DNA from: Thermanaerosceptrum fracticalcis
GTDB lineage: Bacteria > Bacillota > Peptococcia > DRI-13
Assembly: GCF_000746025.2 (NCBI RefSeq)
Contig: NZ_CP045798.1
Span: 3,703,501 to 3,767,500, forward strand
Direction: 5' to 3'
DNA: 64,000 nucleotides
Shown here: piece by piece, positions 6,659 to 49,812 of the stretch
How the letters are laid out: each line of letters opens with the position of its first letter
Numbering within the stretch: position 1 is the first letter of the stretch
Position numbers and translations under genes: made by a program
The notes under the pieces: model-generated
The model's database searches: none
Told to the model about the DNA's origin: nothing
The model's input: the letters and a program-made list of their open reading frames with translations, nothing else

Positions 6659-6728
6659 TAGTTGATAGTTGATAGTTGTTAGTTGTTAGTTGATAGTTGA
6701 TAGTTGAATTCGGAAAACGGAAGTCGAA
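6659..6728. repeat. 7-bp-period array, TAGTTGA family plus CGGAAAA units
   Basis: Seven consecutive in-phase units (TAGTTGA, TAGTTGA, TAGTTGT, TAGTTGT, then TAGTTGA three times) occupy 6659-6707, the longest array in the window. After 3 bp, CGGAAAA and CGGAAGT units of another family follow at 6711-6724. Confidence 0.92.
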
Positions 6729-21575: not shown

Positions 21576-22682
21576 TTGCTGCAGCGAATTGTTGCTCCCG
21601 GCCACTATTTGCGTGAAGCGGGAATGATAAAAAAGGCGGGCAGCCATTGCCGCCAGGTAGGAAAGAAGGCTTTTATCATCGGCGGTAAAACTGCTCTTTC
21701 CATAGTAGAAAAAGACTTGACCGGCAGTCTGGAAGAGAAGGGCGTAGAAACGGCAGCCGTTAGTTGGTACGGTGGTGAATGCTGTTGGGAAAATATTGAG
21801 GCTCTTGCCCAACAGGTGAAGAAAAAGGGCGCCGATTTTATTATTGGCGTGGGCGGAGGCAAAGCCCTGGATACGGCCAAGGCCGTTGCTTTTGCTTTGG
21901 GTTTACCCGTAATTACCATTCCCACCATTGCCGCGACCTGTGCGGCCTGGACGCCGTTAGCGGTAGTGTATACCCTGGAGGGGATGTACCTGGAGTTATC
22001 CTCTAAAGCCCAGAATCCGGCAAAAGTTCTGGTTGATACCGAGGTTATCGCCCAGGCGCCCATCGCTTTTTTAAGAGCGGGTATCGGTGATACACTGGCA
22101 AAATGGTTCGAGTCGGAGATTTCCAGCCGTAATACTGGGGGCAATGCAGCGGTTTCTGCTGCCCTAAGCCTGGGAAACCTGTGTTATCAAATTTTATTAG
22201 AATATGGCACTGGGGCCTGTCTTAGTGGGGAAAAAGGCCAGGTATCACCTGCTTTGGAACAGGTTGTGGATGCCAATATCATGCTAAGTGGTTTAGTCAG
22301 CGGGTTAGGCGGTGATGAATGCCGGACCGGGGCTGCCCATTCCATTTATAACGGGCTCACGGTCTTAGAAAATGCCCACCGGCGTTATCATGGGGAAATT
22401 GTGGCATACGGTATTTTATGCCAGTTGGTTTTGGATAAAAAAGAGGATGAATTAGTTAAACTATTGACTTTCTACCATAAGACGGGACTGCCCATGACCC
22501 TGGAGGAACTGGGAATTCATAGCCTGAGTAAAGAAGAGGAACTTGCTGTGGGAAAGGCTTCCGCCGAAGTGGAAGACATGGCGAATATGCCTTTTACGGT
22601 AACAGCGGAAATGGTTGTCGATGCTCTTTATCGCGTAGACCAACTGGGAAGACGTTACAGGGGAGGTGAAAATCTTGTTTAA
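21576..22682 (+). CDS. Iron-type alcohol / glycerol dehydrogenase family protein
   Basis: This 368-residue protein belongs to the GldA branch of metal-dependent polyol dehydrogenases. The NAD-binding GGG motif is IIGVGGGKALDTAK (about residue 95), and the metal-site segments are present: an Asp in the GIGDTLAKWFE helix, AAHSIYNGLT and HGEIVAYG, which carry the conserved histidines. The start is TTG with AAAGGATGG upstream. The 3' end overlaps the aminotransferase gene, implying joint expression. A role in glycerol oxidation is possible, but the pairing with a HisC-like enzyme suggests a dehydrogenation-transamination sequence on an unidentified substrate. Confidence 0.85.
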   Translation: MLQRIVAPGHYLREAGMIKKAGSHCRQVGKKAFIIGGKTALSIVEKDLTGSLEEKGVETAAVSWYGGECCWENIEALAQQVKKKGADFIIGVGGGKALDTAKAVAFALGLPVITIPTIAATCAAWTPLAVVYTLEGMYLELSSKAQNPAKVLVDTEVIAQAPIAFLRAGIGDTLAKWFESEISSRNTGGNAAVSAALSLGNLCYQILLEYGTGACLSGEKGQVSPALEQVVDANIMLSGLVSGLGGDECRTGAAHSIYNGLTVLENAHRRYHGEIVAYGILCQLVLDKKEDELVKLLTFYHKTGLPMTLEELGIHSLSKEEELAVGKASAEVEDMANMPFTVTAEMVVDALYRVDQLGRRYRGGENLV

Positions 22683-23784
22683 CAGTTTTACAAGAATGAG
22701 AAAGGAAGCCAGGGGACTACAGCCTTTTATTCCAGAGCTGCCGGATATGGCCCTGGAGCAGATTAAAGCCCTTACCGGGTTGGAGAAAATCGTGAAATTA
22801 TCTTTTAATGAAAATCCTTTTGGCCCCAGTCCCAAAGCTGTGGAAGCCATCAGGGAAGCAGCGTCTCAGCTTAATTTATACCCGGATGCCGTGGCCAATG
22901 GACTGCGGGATGTTTTGGCCCAGGGCTATGGTTTAACAAAAGACCACATTGTCCTGTCTAATGGTGCCGATGAAATGATTGTTTTAACAGCCCAGGCCTT
23001 TTTGGAAGAAGGAGACCACGTCTTAATACCTTTTCCCACCTTCGGTCAGTATTTTGCTTCCACCATTTTAATGGGGGCAGTGCCTGAAAAAGTTGCCCTG
23101 AACAATTTTAAAGTGGACATTGGGAACATCCTGTCTTCACTTACGCCCCGGAGCAAGCTGATTTTCCTGTGTAACCCCAATAACCCCACAGGTACTTATC
23201 TCAGTAAGGATGAGCTCATAAACCTCTTGGAAAACTTACCTCCGGAAGTTCTTCTGGTGCTAGATGAAGCCTATGGGGAGTATGTAGAAGCCCCTGATTA
23301 TATTTCCGGTGTCAGCTTTTTATCTGCCTATCCTAATGTCCTGGTGATTCGAACTTTTTCCAAAATATATGCACTGGCCGGGGCCAGGGTGGGCTACGCT
23401 TTGGCCAATCCCGCCATTATCCAGGCCATAAACAAAGTGAGGCCGCCTTTTAACCTTAATGCCCTGGGGCAGGTGGCAGCTCTTGCGTCTTTCTGCGATC
23501 GAGAGTACATTTTAACGGCAAAAGCCCATAACGCCCGGGTTAAAAAAGAGTTGTATGATTTTTTACAGGGGCACGGGTTATCTTTTGTACCCTCAGAAAC
23601 TAATTTTGTGTTAATTGACGTGGGACAGGATGCCATTAAACTTTGCTCCCGGTTGGCGGAAAAAGGGATTATGGTACGCTGCGGTTCTGCCTGGGGACTG
23701 GATTCCTATATCAGGGTTAGCCTGGGCAGTGTTGAGGATATGGCTTATTTCCAGGATCAGCTGAAGAAGTTGATAAATATTTAG
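22675..23784 (+). CDS. HisC-like PLP aminotransferase (histidinol-phosphate aminotransferase family)
   Basis: This class I/II aminotransferase of about 369 residues converts an amino-phosphate or related amine with 2-oxoglutarate. HisC signatures are KLSFNENPFGPSPKA near the N-terminus, LFLCNPNNPTGTY, LVLDEAYGEY, and the PLP lysine in RTFSKIYALAGARVGY. TTG 22675 is chosen because GGAGG ends 9 nt upstream; a GTG at 22666 lies within that site. It overlaps the dehydrogenase gene by 8 bp. No other histidine genes are present, so the true substrate may not be histidinol phosphate; paralogues act in cobalamin (CobD) and other pathways. Confidence 0.85.
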   Translation: MFNSFTRMRKEARGLQPFIPELPDMALEQIKALTGLEKIVKLSFNENPFGPSPKAVEAIREAASQLNLYPDAVANGLRDVLAQGYGLTKDHIVLSNGADEMIVLTAQAFLEEGDHVLIPFPTFGQYFASTILMGAVPEKVALNNFKVDIGNILSSLTPRSKLIFLCNPNNPTGTYLSKDELINLLENLPPEVLLVLDEAYGEYVEAPDYISGVSFLSAYPNVLVIRTFSKIYALAGARVGYALANPAIIQAINKVRPPFNLNALGQVAALASFCDREYILTAKAHNARVKKELYDFLQGHGLSFVPSETNFVLIDVGQDAIKLCSRLAEKGIMVRCGSAWGLDSYIRVSLGSVEDMAYFQDQLKKLINI

Positions 23785-26554: not shown

Positions 26555-26677
26555 CGGTGACCGGAGACCAGTGTCCGGTGACCCGTTAATGATTATTCCT
26601 GTGTATTACAAAATTGATTACGGTGATCGGTGATCGAGTCGTGGTATATACTACCAACTATCAACTATCAACTAACA
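26555..26677. repeat. Cluster of three 7-bp-period arrays
   Basis: At 26555-26589 the units are CGGTGAC, CGGAGAC, CAGTGTC, CGGTGAC, CCGTTAA. At 26614-26641 they are TTGATTA, CGGTGAT, CGGTGAT, CGAGTCG. At 26650-26677 they are ACTACCA, ACTATCA, ACTATCA, ACTAACA. The last array ends 2 bp before the ribosome binding site of tenI. Confidence 0.9.
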
Positions 26678-26696
26678 ACCAGGAGTGAGTGCATTC

Positions 26697-27454: not shown

Positions 27455-27485
27455 GGGCTTACCCCTTGCGGGTAGGCTTTTTTAG
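27455..27485 (+). terminator. Riboswitch-controlled attenuator terminator
   Basis: GGGCTTACCC (27455-27464) pairs with GGGTAGGCTT (27470-27479) including G-U pairs, followed by a T run. It lies between the TPP aptamer and thiS and is the expected expression platform. Confidence 0.88.
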
Positions 27486-27506
27486 TTGGCAGTTGGTAGT
27501 TGGTAG
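27486..27506. repeat. 7-bp-period array, TTGGTAG family
   Basis: Three in-phase units (TTGGCAG, TTGGTAG, TTGGTAG) fill the space between the attenuator and the AAGGAGG site of thiS. Confidence 0.8.
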
Positions 27507-31750: not shown

Positions 31751-31778
31751 ACTACCAACTATCAACTACCAACTATTT
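31751..31778. repeat. 7-bp-period array reaching into the ykuK stop codon
   Basis: The units ACTACCA, ACTATCA, ACTACCA and ACTATTT are in phase. The last unit contains the stop codon of the minus-strand YkuK-like gene, so the array touches coding sequence. This is the last heptameric array seen in the window. Confidence 0.88.
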
Positions 31779-35930: not shown

Positions 35931-37124
35931 ATGTCAAAAGGTGCATTAACAGGTGTTAAAGTTCTTGATTTAACAAGAGTACTGGCAGGGCCGTTTTGTA
36001 CCATGATGCTGGCCGATATGGGGGCCGATGTCATCAAAATCGAGGAACCCCAAAAAGGTGATGACAGCAGGCAGTTTGGTCCCTTTGTCAATGGGGAAAG
36101 TGCCTATTATATGAATTTAAATAGAAACAAGAGGGGAGTTACTCTCAATTTAAAACACCCCGAAGGGAAAGAAATCTTTTTGGAAATGGTGAAAAAGGCG
36201 GATATTGTCGTGGAGAATTACAGACCAGGTACTATGGAAAAGTTAGGATTAGGATATGAGGACCTGGCAAAAGTTAATCCGGGTATCATCTATGCCTGCG
36301 TTTCAGGTTTTGGGCATTATGGGCCCTACAAAGACAGGGCAGGTTATGATATCATAGGTCAGGCCATGGGAGGATTGATGAGCACTACCGGCTGGCCGGA
36401 TGGTGAGCCTACGAGAACTGGAACGGCCATGGCAGATGTGCTGGCGGGTCTTTCCGTAACGGTAGCTGTTCTTGCCGCCTTAAAATACAGGGATAATACG
36501 GGAAAAGGACAAAAGGTGGATGTGGCCTTGGTTGACTCTGTGGTGGCCAGCCTGGAGATTATTAATCAAATCTATTTAGTTGAAGGAAGGAACCCCGAAA
36601 GAATTGGCAATCGTTATGAATCTGTCTATCCCTATGATTCTTTCAAAGCCAGTGATGGCAGCCTGGTTATCGGCTGTGGCAATGATAAACTTTTTGAGCA
36701 GTTGTGTAAAGTTATAGGAAAACCTGAACTGGCCAAAGACCAGCGTTTTGACAGGAATCCCAAACGTGTCCAAAGGCATGCTGAATTAAAACCTGTTATT
36801 GAGGAATGGACTATGATGAAGACAGTGGATGAGATCGTAGATATGTTGTTGGAGGCCGGGATCCCCGCAGCCCCTATTAACACCATAGAGAGAGTAGTGA
36901 AAGATTCCCATATTGCAGGAGCCCGGGAGATGTTTGTAGAACTGGAACATCCTAAAGCCGGCAAGTTAAAGATAACGGGTTCTCATTTGAAATTCAGTGA
37001 AACAAAGGTTGCCTTTAGAAAACCGTCGCCTCTTCTTGGACAACATAACCAGGAAATATACGGAGAGGAATTGAATATCCCGGAAGAACAACTTAAATCT
37101 CTTAAGGAAAAAGGAGTAATTTAG
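35931..37124 (+). CDS. CaiB/BaiF family (class III) CoA-transferase
   Basis: This 397-residue enzyme moves CoA between carboxylic acids. Family signatures are VLDLTRVLAGPFCTMMLADMGADVIKIE at the N-terminus, SAYYMNLNRNKRGVTLNLK, VENYRPGTMEKLGLGYE with the conserved catalytic-region Asp further on (GYDIIGQAMGG), and AAPINTIERVVKD near the C-terminus. ATG 35931 follows GAGGGGAGAG; the frame is open further upstream but that part contains the sigma-54 promoter. With the lyase that follows it probably activates an imported hydroxy- or dicarboxylic acid as a CoA thioester. Expression should depend on sigma-54 and the regulator at 38153. Confidence 0.93.
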   Translation: MSKGALTGVKVLDLTRVLAGPFCTMMLADMGADVIKIEEPQKGDDSRQFGPFVNGESAYYMNLNRNKRGVTLNLKHPEGKEIFLEMVKKADIVVENYRPGTMEKLGLGYEDLAKVNPGIIYACVSGFGHYGPYKDRAGYDIIGQAMGGLMSTTGWPDGEPTRTGTAMADVLAGLSVTVAVLAALKYRDNTGKGQKVDVALVDSVVASLEIINQIYLVEGRNPERIGNRYESVYPYDSFKASDGSLVIGCGNDKLFEQLCKVIGKPELAKDQRFDRNPKRVQRHAELKPVIEEWTMMKTVDEIVDMLLEAGIPAAPINTIERVVKDSHIAGAREMFVELEHPKAGKLKITGSHLKFSETKVAFRKPSPLLGQHNQEIYGEELNIPEEQLKSLKEKGVI

Positions 37125-47153: not shown

Positions 47154-47261
47154 ACAAATACCTCCAATGCTATGCTTCATGAATGCTTGAACAGTCACAA
47201 TGAATATGATAATACAGAAAACAGCATAAAAGCAAAGGCATTTTAAGGTAACCCAAGAAAG

Positions 47262-47296
47262 AAAAATAGCCTTTGCCGGAAGGCAAAAGCTATCTT
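47262..47296. terminator. Hairpin between the MetS-like and NSS genes
   Basis: ATAGCCTTTGCC (47266-47277) pairs with GGCAAAAGCTAT (47282-47293) with one mismatch and a GGAA loop. T runs follow on both strands, so it could partly terminate the minus-strand transcript before the transporter gene. Confidence 0.7.
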
Positions 47297-47315
47297 TTTA
47301 ACTTTAAGCTGTTCT

Positions 47316-47402
47316 TTATTCTGTAGCTTCGTTACTACGTGCCCTTTTAGCCACGTAAGTTAAGACTAAAAATATAACAACTATATTCAATAAAATAATC
47401 AT
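47316..47402 (-). CDS. MetS-like small subunit of the NSS transporter (28 residues)
   Basis: A 28-codon gene encodes one helix and a basic tail (MIILLNIVVIFLVLTYVAKR then ARSNEATE). Start support is AAAGGAG about 9 nt upstream. Tiny single-helix proteins with a hydrophobic N-terminus and charged end are encoded next to many bacterial NSS transporters and were described as MetS, required with MetP for methionine uptake in Corynebacterium. Here the small gene is upstream of the transporter on the same strand, with a hairpin between. The identification rests on size, topology and neighbourhood. Confidence 0.75.
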   Translation of the reverse strand: MIILLNIVVIFLVLTYVAKRARSNEATE

Positions 47403-47620
47403 CTTCTGCGCTCCTTTCCTACTCCTAGACAGATTATAGACGAAAGATATGTAGAAATTGTTTCTATCAATTTAAGAAATTGTTAAATATTATATGGCAA
47501 AATAGTACAAATAATATTATTATTGATAATTATTATACACTTATCCAGAAGTGAGCACAAGGAAAAGTTGTTTCCATATGTTATTTATTTACAATTTCCC
47601 GTATTTATTCTTTTTAAGAT
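47403..47620. other. AT-rich intergenic stretch
   Basis: This gap separates the MetS-like gene from the terminator of the DUF2225 gene. It is very AT-rich (about 47460-47560), probably holds the promoter of the metS-NSS pair, and shows no further coding sequence. Confidence 0.6.
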
Positions 47621-47657
47621 AAAAACGGGCAGTCTAATCGGCTGATTAGACTGCCCG
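47621..47657 (-). terminator. Terminator of the DUF2225 gene
   Basis: The 14-bp perfect stem CGGGCAGTCTAATC/GATTAGACTGCCCG has a GGCT loop, with T5 following on the minus strand, and directly abuts the stop codon. Confidence 0.95.
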
Positions 47658-48335
47658 CTAAATTCCTATTTCTTTAATCTGTTCCTTATAATCATACCAG
47701 CGTTCCCGGGCCATTTTTACTACTCTCGGTTCGGCATTTTTCTCCGCAAAGAGTCTGCTAAACCATTTTCTGGTCTCTTCGTATTTTTTGAGCCTACCGT
47801 TAAGTTCGGCAAGTAAATAAAATAACGTGGCTTTGCCCATAGCCAGGTGATTAAGGTCTTCAAATTCGTAAACACTGAGGTAAGCATTTAACGCATTGGC
47901 TAAAAATCTTTCTTCCTCCTGAGGATTATTTTGAAAACGGTAAAGCCAGGAGAGCCTTAAGCAAAGACTGGCCGTCATTAAATATTGCTCTTCTAAAAGG
48001 GTAGAAAAAATTAAGGCCAGTTTGTAACTTGTAATGGCATCCTCCATGTTGCGGGGGCCGCACAGGTTAATTTTATTCAGGCGTTCGATATAGTTCTTAC
48101 GCAGGATTTCTTTTTCACTATTTCGTAATTCCGGTGTATTACCTAAAAAAGCGTACCCGCAGTGGGGACAAACGTTTACATCATAAAAATAGGGATTTAT
48201 TTCGCCCTCATAATGGGTGCAGAAGTCATGATCTTTATGTTTAACGATTAGCTTGCTTTGTTTGACCTTTGTAGTTTTAAAGGGTAAATTGCAGTATAGA
48301 CAGGTTACTTGTTTTTCGTACAGTATATTGTCCAA
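47658..48335 (-). CDS. DUF2225 family protein
   Basis: A protein of about 225 residues starts with two zinc-knuckle-like Cys pairs (VTCLYCNLPF at about residue 12 and NVCPHCGYAF at about 60), followed by an all-helical TPR-like region (about 95-215). This layout is the DUF2225 family, widespread in Firmicutes and of unknown function. TTG 48335 is chosen because AAGGAGGT lies 7 nt upstream; a longer in-frame reading begins inside that region. It is transcribed alone. No partner is evident. Confidence 0.88.
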   Translation of the reverse strand: MDNILYEKQVTCLYCNLPFKTTKVKQSKLIVKHKDHDFCTHYEGEINPYFYDVNVCPHCGYAFLGNTPELRNSEKEILRKNYIERLNKINLCGPRNMEDAITSYKLALIFSTLLEEQYLMTASLCLRLSWLYRFQNNPQEEERFLANALNAYLSVYEFEDLNHLAMGKATLFYLLAELNGRLKKYEETRKWFSRLFAEKNAEPRVVKMARERWYDYKEQIKEIGI

Positions 48336-48494
48336 GTTCTTGACCTCCTTCTTTTTGTATAATAGCATTAGTCCCAGAAAAATTCTACCTATAGTCCTAA
48401 TTTCTTCATGTTATTTACAAGATATTACTATTTTCTTGTTTCTTCTGTGTTTTATATATTGAAAAATATAGACAAATCGGGGGAGGATATGGAC

Positions 48495-48687
48495 ATGGAA
48501 CAGGATAAAAAGAATATACTCGCCCACAAACTTAAAGAAATAGAACGGTTAAGGACAGATTTAATTAAACTTGTAGTCGATAAGGGAGGTAACTTTCAGG
48601 ATAGGGAGGTTATCCGCTTAGGAGGTTATCCGCTTAAGTGAATTATTAGATGAATCGATAGTAGAATATTTAAAGATATTAAACTGA
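48495..48687 (+). pseudogene. Spo0E-like phosphatase gene broken by a 16-bp tandem duplication
   Basis: The frame from ATG 48495 (GGGGAGG site) encodes KLKEIERLRTDLIKLV then GGNFQDREVIRL, the start of a Spo0E-family aspartyl-phosphate phosphatase. An exact 16-bp duplication (48605-48620 and 48621-48636) then shifts the frame, and the product ends as GGYPLK. Removing one copy restores SELLDESIVEYLKILN and a stop at 48685, giving a 58-residue protein with the family motif S-x-x-L-D. Spo0E proteins dephosphorylate Spo0A and delay sporulation, so this allele is probably inactive. Confidence 0.88.
48605..48636 (+). repeat. Exact 16-bp tandem duplication inside the Spo0E-like gene
   Basis: The unit GGAGGTTATCCGCTTA occurs twice without a gap. 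Because 16 is not a multiple of three, it changes the reading frame. Confidence 0.97.
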
Positions 48688-48810
48688 TACAAGGTGGAAG
48701 AATGTTCAGAAAATATAGTATAATGTTTAATAGATTTGAAGAGTAGAGTAGATATTGTTCATATACTTTAGGCAGGTCCCCGGTATTCCATTAAGGAGGG
48801 AATTCGGTTC

Positions 48811-49365
48811 ATGGCTAATACTTTTGGCGTTCACGCAGTCTTTTATTACTACGAATTAGAACACCTCATGGTAAATCTTTGTCATTATATTCATAACGCC
48901 GCCGTTAATAGAGAAGCAGTCTTCCTCTCCCTTGACCCTGATTTATTGAAGCGTTTACACTACTTTCTCAAGGTTAACGGTATACCGACAGAAGGTGTGA
49001 TGAGCCATTCAATGAATGAACTTCTCGAATGTTTACGGAGGAGCGGAAGCAAGGGAGTACACGAAAAAATTTGTAATTTGGCTTCTTCCGTAACTTCTGC
49101 GGGATATCAGGGAATAAGATGGATATGCCAGCCTTTCTTTTTTCTTGAGGAAACACCCAGAGAAGAAATCTATCATTTCGAAAAAGACCTGGGAGAAGCA
49201 TTAATAGGAACAAACTGTTCATTTCTCTGTGCGTATGATTTCGGGGTAGTTGTCAATTCAGACGCCAGACATATCGAGATTTTACAGGACTCACTTCTTA
49301 CCCACGAGATGATCCTCAATAAATTTACGCTGCAAAAGTGTGATGAGGTGCTAAAAGTAAAATAA
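48811..49365 (+). CDS. MEDS (DcmR-like sensory) domain protein
   Basis: This 184-residue soluble protein resembles the MEDS domain (methanogen/methylotroph DcmR sensory domain): HAVFYYYELEHLMVNLCHYI at the N-terminus corresponds to the HxxxxYxxxxxLxxxxxxFI start of that family, and RWICQPFFF, EKDLGEAL and SFLCAYDFG follow in the family order (a degenerate RecA-like fold). The DNA-binding part of DcmR is missing, so it is a stand-alone sensor. A neighbouring Spo0E-like gene suggests a link with sporulation control. GGAGGG precedes the ATG. Confidence 0.7.
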   Translation: MANTFGVHAVFYYYELEHLMVNLCHYIHNAAVNREAVFLSLDPDLLKRLHYFLKVNGIPTEGVMSHSMNELLECLRRSGSKGVHEKICNLASSVTSAGYQGIRWICQPFFFLEETPREEIYHFEKDLGEALIGTNCSFLCAYDFGVVVNSDARHIEILQDSLLTHEMILNKFTLQKCDEVLKVK

Positions 49366-49392
49366 AATACCCTGTAGTTTTCTGTGCACTAA

Positions 49393-49812
49393 CTAGAGAT
49401 TCGTGGAGCTGCAAGTAAAAGCATCAGGGTCGCTAAAGGTATAAATATCGTTTTCTTCCGGGTCTTTTCTACCATTGTCATTGGTATCTTTAAGTAAGTA
49501 GATAATCCCGTCTTTATCCACTACATAGCTATATCCGGGTATATGTGAGGAAGGAAGTTTAAAAAAATACAAATCTCCCAAGGAGTTTATACTGTCAGGA
49601 TAAGTTCCCCGTGCTAATTTATAGGTTTCGCAGGCTGTGGCTATGTTTTTTAAGTCGCTTTTTACTTTGACTAAATTTGCTTTGGCCGTCACATTCTGAA
49701 AAGCGGAAAGAAACGTTGTGGCCAGTATACCAATGATTACCGTCACAATCATAAGTTCGATAAGGGTTGTTCCCATTGCAGTTTTCATTACCATTCCTAT
49801 GGTCTTACGCAC
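49393..49812 (-). CDS. Type IV pilin-like protein with prepilin signal and Ca-type loop
   Basis: This 139-residue protein has a class III signal sequence: a short basic leader ending in MG, then TTLIELMIVTVIIGILAT, the hydrophobic N-terminal helix with Glu at position +5 as in type IV pilins and type II pseudopilins. The C-terminal domain contains DTNDNGRKDPEEND, matching a calcium-binding loop (DxNxNGxxDxxE) like those stabilising PulG/GspG-type major pseudopilins. The GTG at 49812 follows GGAGGG. No assembly ATPase, prepilin peptidase or other pilin gene is nearby. Confidence 0.85.
   Translation of the reverse strand: MRKTIGMVMKTAMGTTLIELMIVTVIIGILATTFLSAFQNVTAKANLVKVKSDLKNIATACETYKLARGTYPDSINSLGDLYFFKLPSSHIPGYSYVVDKDGIIYLLKDTNDNGRKDPEENDIYTFSDPDAFTCSSTNL

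Follow-up and report, generated by a model that had tools for sequence, protein, structure and literature searches.

Spo0E-type genes normally restrain spore formation, and the 64,000-nucleotide stretch of Thermanaerosceptrum fracticalcis DNA analyzed here (the window) contains a Spo0E-like gene whose reading frame is broken by a short duplication. The question raised by this locus is whether the break acts as a reversible sporulation switch, as proposed in the initial annotation, or is simply a step in the loss of one member of a gene family. The analysis favors the second answer: a frameshifted, redundant Spo0E-like paralogue undergoing ordinary gene loss, with the broken allele present in both genomes of the genus, a reading to which we assign a probability of about 0.8.

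The duplication occupies positions 48605–48636 of the window and consists of two head-to-tail copies of GGAGGTTATCCGCTTA (48605–48620 and 48621–48636, + strand), identified by direct reading and in the tandem-repeat list, with no mismatch between them, exactly as first described. It is the sole perfect tandem pair of 16 bp in the tandem-repeat list of the window, whereas the chance expectation for such a pair, at the base composition of the window, is about 2e-5 per 64 kb. The ORF as it stands (48495–48641, + strand) runs from an ATG at 48495 to a TGA at 48639–48641 and encodes 48 residues ending in VIRLGGYPLK, which match the Pfam SpoOE-like profile (PF09388) with a score of 25.6 bits over profile positions 2–29 of 42. 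On translation, the Spo0E-like frame is lost at the second GGAGGTTATCCGCTTA copy, and the rest of the gene (SELLDESIVEYLKILN, followed by a TGA) lies out of frame at 48637–48687 (+ strand), where it gives a match of its own in the profile search of the genome (profile positions 21–42, with a TAG inside). When one copy is removed, the reading becomes a protein of 58 residues, MEQDKK...VIRLSELLDESIVEYLKILN, passing through SELLD to a TGA at 48685–48687 and scoring 44.4 bits over profile positions 2–42 of 42, which bears out the claim that a complete Spo0E-like protein can be recovered in this way. The complete two-helix domain and the SxxxD signature (SELLD) are present in this one-copy reading and absent from the actual ORF, the signature being lost because the duplication shifts the frame and the ORF ends before the motif. 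SxxxD is the critical signature of the Spo0E-like family, and its aspartate is critical in B. subtilis (PMC11115286). The gene has no frame damage besides the duplication; its start codon and ribosome-binding region are intact, with a Shine-Dalgarno-like GGAGG (48482–48486, + strand) 8 nt 5' of the ATG. Hairpin-forming potential near the duplication was not unusual (z-scores of −1.4 and −0.5), and a search of PDB sequences with the one-copy protein yielded chance matches only.

The broken gene lies between a divergent upstream neighbor encoding a DUF2225 protein (47658–48368, − strand; PF09986, 188.8 bits) and an intact downstream gene for a 184-residue protein with a MEDS (DcmR-type sensory) domain (48811–49365, + strand; PF14417, 48.5 bits), which, among 25 genomes of the order, is confined to this genus. 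No terminator-like site was found between the Spo0E-like and MEDS genes, the promoter/terminator scan being at chance level. Elsewhere in the window, arrays of 7-bp units related to TAGTTGA or its complement TCAACTA occur at 21–51, 6659–6707, 26650–26679, 27483–27506 and 31751–31775; the array at 26650–26679 has about 20 further matching places in the related genome G001, and thus looks like part of a dispersed heptamer repeat family.

The genome carries genes for Spo0A and SpoIVA, so sporulation genes are present and a target exists for control of the Spo0E type. The profile search of the genome gave eight hits that passed the SpoOE-like cut-off: six near-full domains, one fragment and the gene considered here. 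The six paralogues (L001–L006) have an essentially full Spo0E-like domain with SxxxD and appear to be intact. The fragment (L007, G000:C1:1968946-1969008) is a second damaged Spo0E-like gene, retaining only the C-terminal half of the domain, and its DNA is 88% identical to that of L001 over 229 bp, from the middle of the domain onward. Among 46 genomes of the class, two adjacent half-domains in different frames were not found for any further Spo0E-like gene; one Spo0E-like gene of the class (in G031) has an internal TAA.

Two genomes of the genus and family could be compared, the second being an 80%-complete metagenome-assembled genome (MAG), Peptococcaceae MAG M1_7_4_bin.22 (G001), in which the locus lies on contig JAIHAN010000095.1 (L016). 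The comparison with related strains suggested in the initial annotation, made here with this sole relative, gave the two-copy form again: the MAG has the identical two-copy sequence in the same place (L016 position 5312), so that the disabling duplication is common to both genomes (2/2), and no one-copy allele was found in any genome searched. Searches with the region for a plasmid match and with the exact 32-bp pattern in viral contigs found none. Over the 28.8 kb aligned, the window and the MAG differ by 3.8% overall, with a mosaic of 0–17% per kb, yet a tract of 1,169 bp (47827–48995) is free of differences. This tract takes in the entire broken gene, together with roughly three quarters of the DUF2225 gene on one side and the beginning of the MEDS gene on the other. 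Rfam recognized no known RNA family within 47200–49500, and no such family therefore accounts for the tract. The tract is the second longest of its kind, and difference-free tracts are not special to the Spo0E-like gene, because a longer one, of 1,826 bp, is found at 21586–23411. Divergence from the MAG is strongly mosaic along 20001–55086 of the window, ranging from 0% over 21586–23411 to 17% around 36001–37000.

At the level of sequence, the 1,169-bp tract would fit a broken allele that was either co-inherited by the two lineages or recently recombined between them; recent recombination between lineages appears to be the simplest reading, and the broken allele was probably exchanged between lineages by homologous recombination. 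Since the duplication lies within a recently coalesced tract, it must be older than the recent ancestor that the two copies of the tract share. The identity of the two 16-bp copies had itself been taken as a sign of recency, an argument that loses most of its weight on calculation: it is a weak sign, because at 1.25–2.5% substitution per copy such a pair is still identical in about 45–67% of cases. The difference-free tract is better evidence of recent common ancestry. It had also been suggested that fixation of the duplication across a lineage, with further decay of the gene, would speak against a switch. Fixation is seen as far as two genomes can tell, whereas decay is not: the broken gene has no differences from that of the MAG. 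However, the surrounding 1.17 kb is equally free of differences, and the undecayed state of the gene consequently tells little and cannot serve as an argument for function. With its start, ribosome-binding region and remaining frame undamaged, the event may be too young for the gene to be called dead.

How far the duplication might nevertheless be used by the cell depends on the behavior expected of a switch. Slippage between the 16-bp copies would turn the Spo0E-like phosphatase on or off in some cells, and sporulation timing would vary within the population. The copies are perfect, the gene is otherwise intact and the pair is a repeat tract that alters the frame, as in phase-variable genes; there is also a precedent in the capsule genes of pneumococcus, in which spontaneous short tandem duplications revert and give rise to phase variation (work of Waite et al. 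from 2001 and 2003, cited in PMC4022640); for a 9-bp insertion, the citing paper puts the expected reversion at about 1e-5 at most. Against this, both states would be expected among strains, and the two genomes are both OFF, with the one-copy allele missing from all genomes searched; the other Spo0E-like genes of the class (46 genomes) show no similar arrangement; there are two copies only rather than a run of repeats; and the six intact paralogues would blunt any effect. A search of the open literature for sporulation genes under tandem-repeat phase variation found nothing. Switching of this kind is unlikely, and the fuller version, in which the pair would be a naturally occurring contingency switch that spread recently, acting on a paralogue of the Spo0A phosphatases and conferring heritable variation in sporulation timing within a population, is a little more doubtful still. 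If it were true, bet-hedging in sporulation could arise by simple genetic means. The possibility of reversion is not evidence of its use by the organism, which we consider to be of low probability, since both states of a switch ought to be seen somewhere.

It is very improbable that function survives in the 48-residue protein or in a product of +1 recoding, even though the N-terminal part is intact and direct reading reveals an internal Shine-Dalgarno-like GGAGGT ahead of the stop (followed by CTT AAG TGA), an arrangement loosely similar to the prfB recoding site. The spacing between GGAGGT and CTT and the slip from CTT to TTA presumably depart from those of the known efficient +1 site, and recoding would place GGYPL inside the intended second helix. 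The 48-residue product lacks SxxxD, and direct reading found no start codon in the frame of the C-terminal half ahead of SxxxD, leaving no place for a translation restart. An artefact of assembly or sequencing in the window is scarcely credible: small tandem duplications can be misassembled, but the MAG, which was assembled separately and is 3.8% divergent over the aligned part of the window, has the same two copies at this position.

Gene loss thus remains the preferred explanation, and the initial interpretation is partly supported: the Spo0E-like identity, the exact duplication and the frame break before the catalytic motif hold, whereas the switch is not supported by any positive evidence. 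Under gene loss, the 16-bp segment, whose duplication is observed, was probably duplicated by replication slippage; the resulting frame shift, with a stop soon after, removed the second half of a Spo0E-like phosphatase paralogue. The 48-residue product, which stops after the first part of the domain, lacks the SxxxD needed for action on Spo0A~P, and a loss of activity is expected from what is known of the family. The loss was probably tolerated through redundancy, as six apparently intact Spo0E-like genes remain, and the broken allele, within its recently coalesced tract, was probably spread by homologous recombination. Like any short tandem duplication, this one could collapse to exactly one copy at a low rate, which would repair the gene. 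On present evidence, the locus is an example of multi-copy Spo0E-like families losing members, and also of two genomes having a small broken allele in common through a recently shared tract.

The spontaneous duplications in pneumococcal capsule genes such as cap8E and tts (Waite et al., 2001, 2003, cited in PMC4022640) resemble this one in being exact, ORF-breaking and, in principle, revertible; the Spo0E-like gene differs from them, as they are described there, in being OFF in both known genomes, with neither reversion nor a mixed population nor the one-copy form seen. The gene resembles the Spo0E-like aspartyl-phosphate phosphatases (PF09388) in the N-terminal half of its domain and in length. 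Unlike them, its actual ORF ends before the motif, owing to the 16-bp duplication, whereas in the one-copy reading the likeness extends to a complete domain, with SELLD at the SxxxD position.
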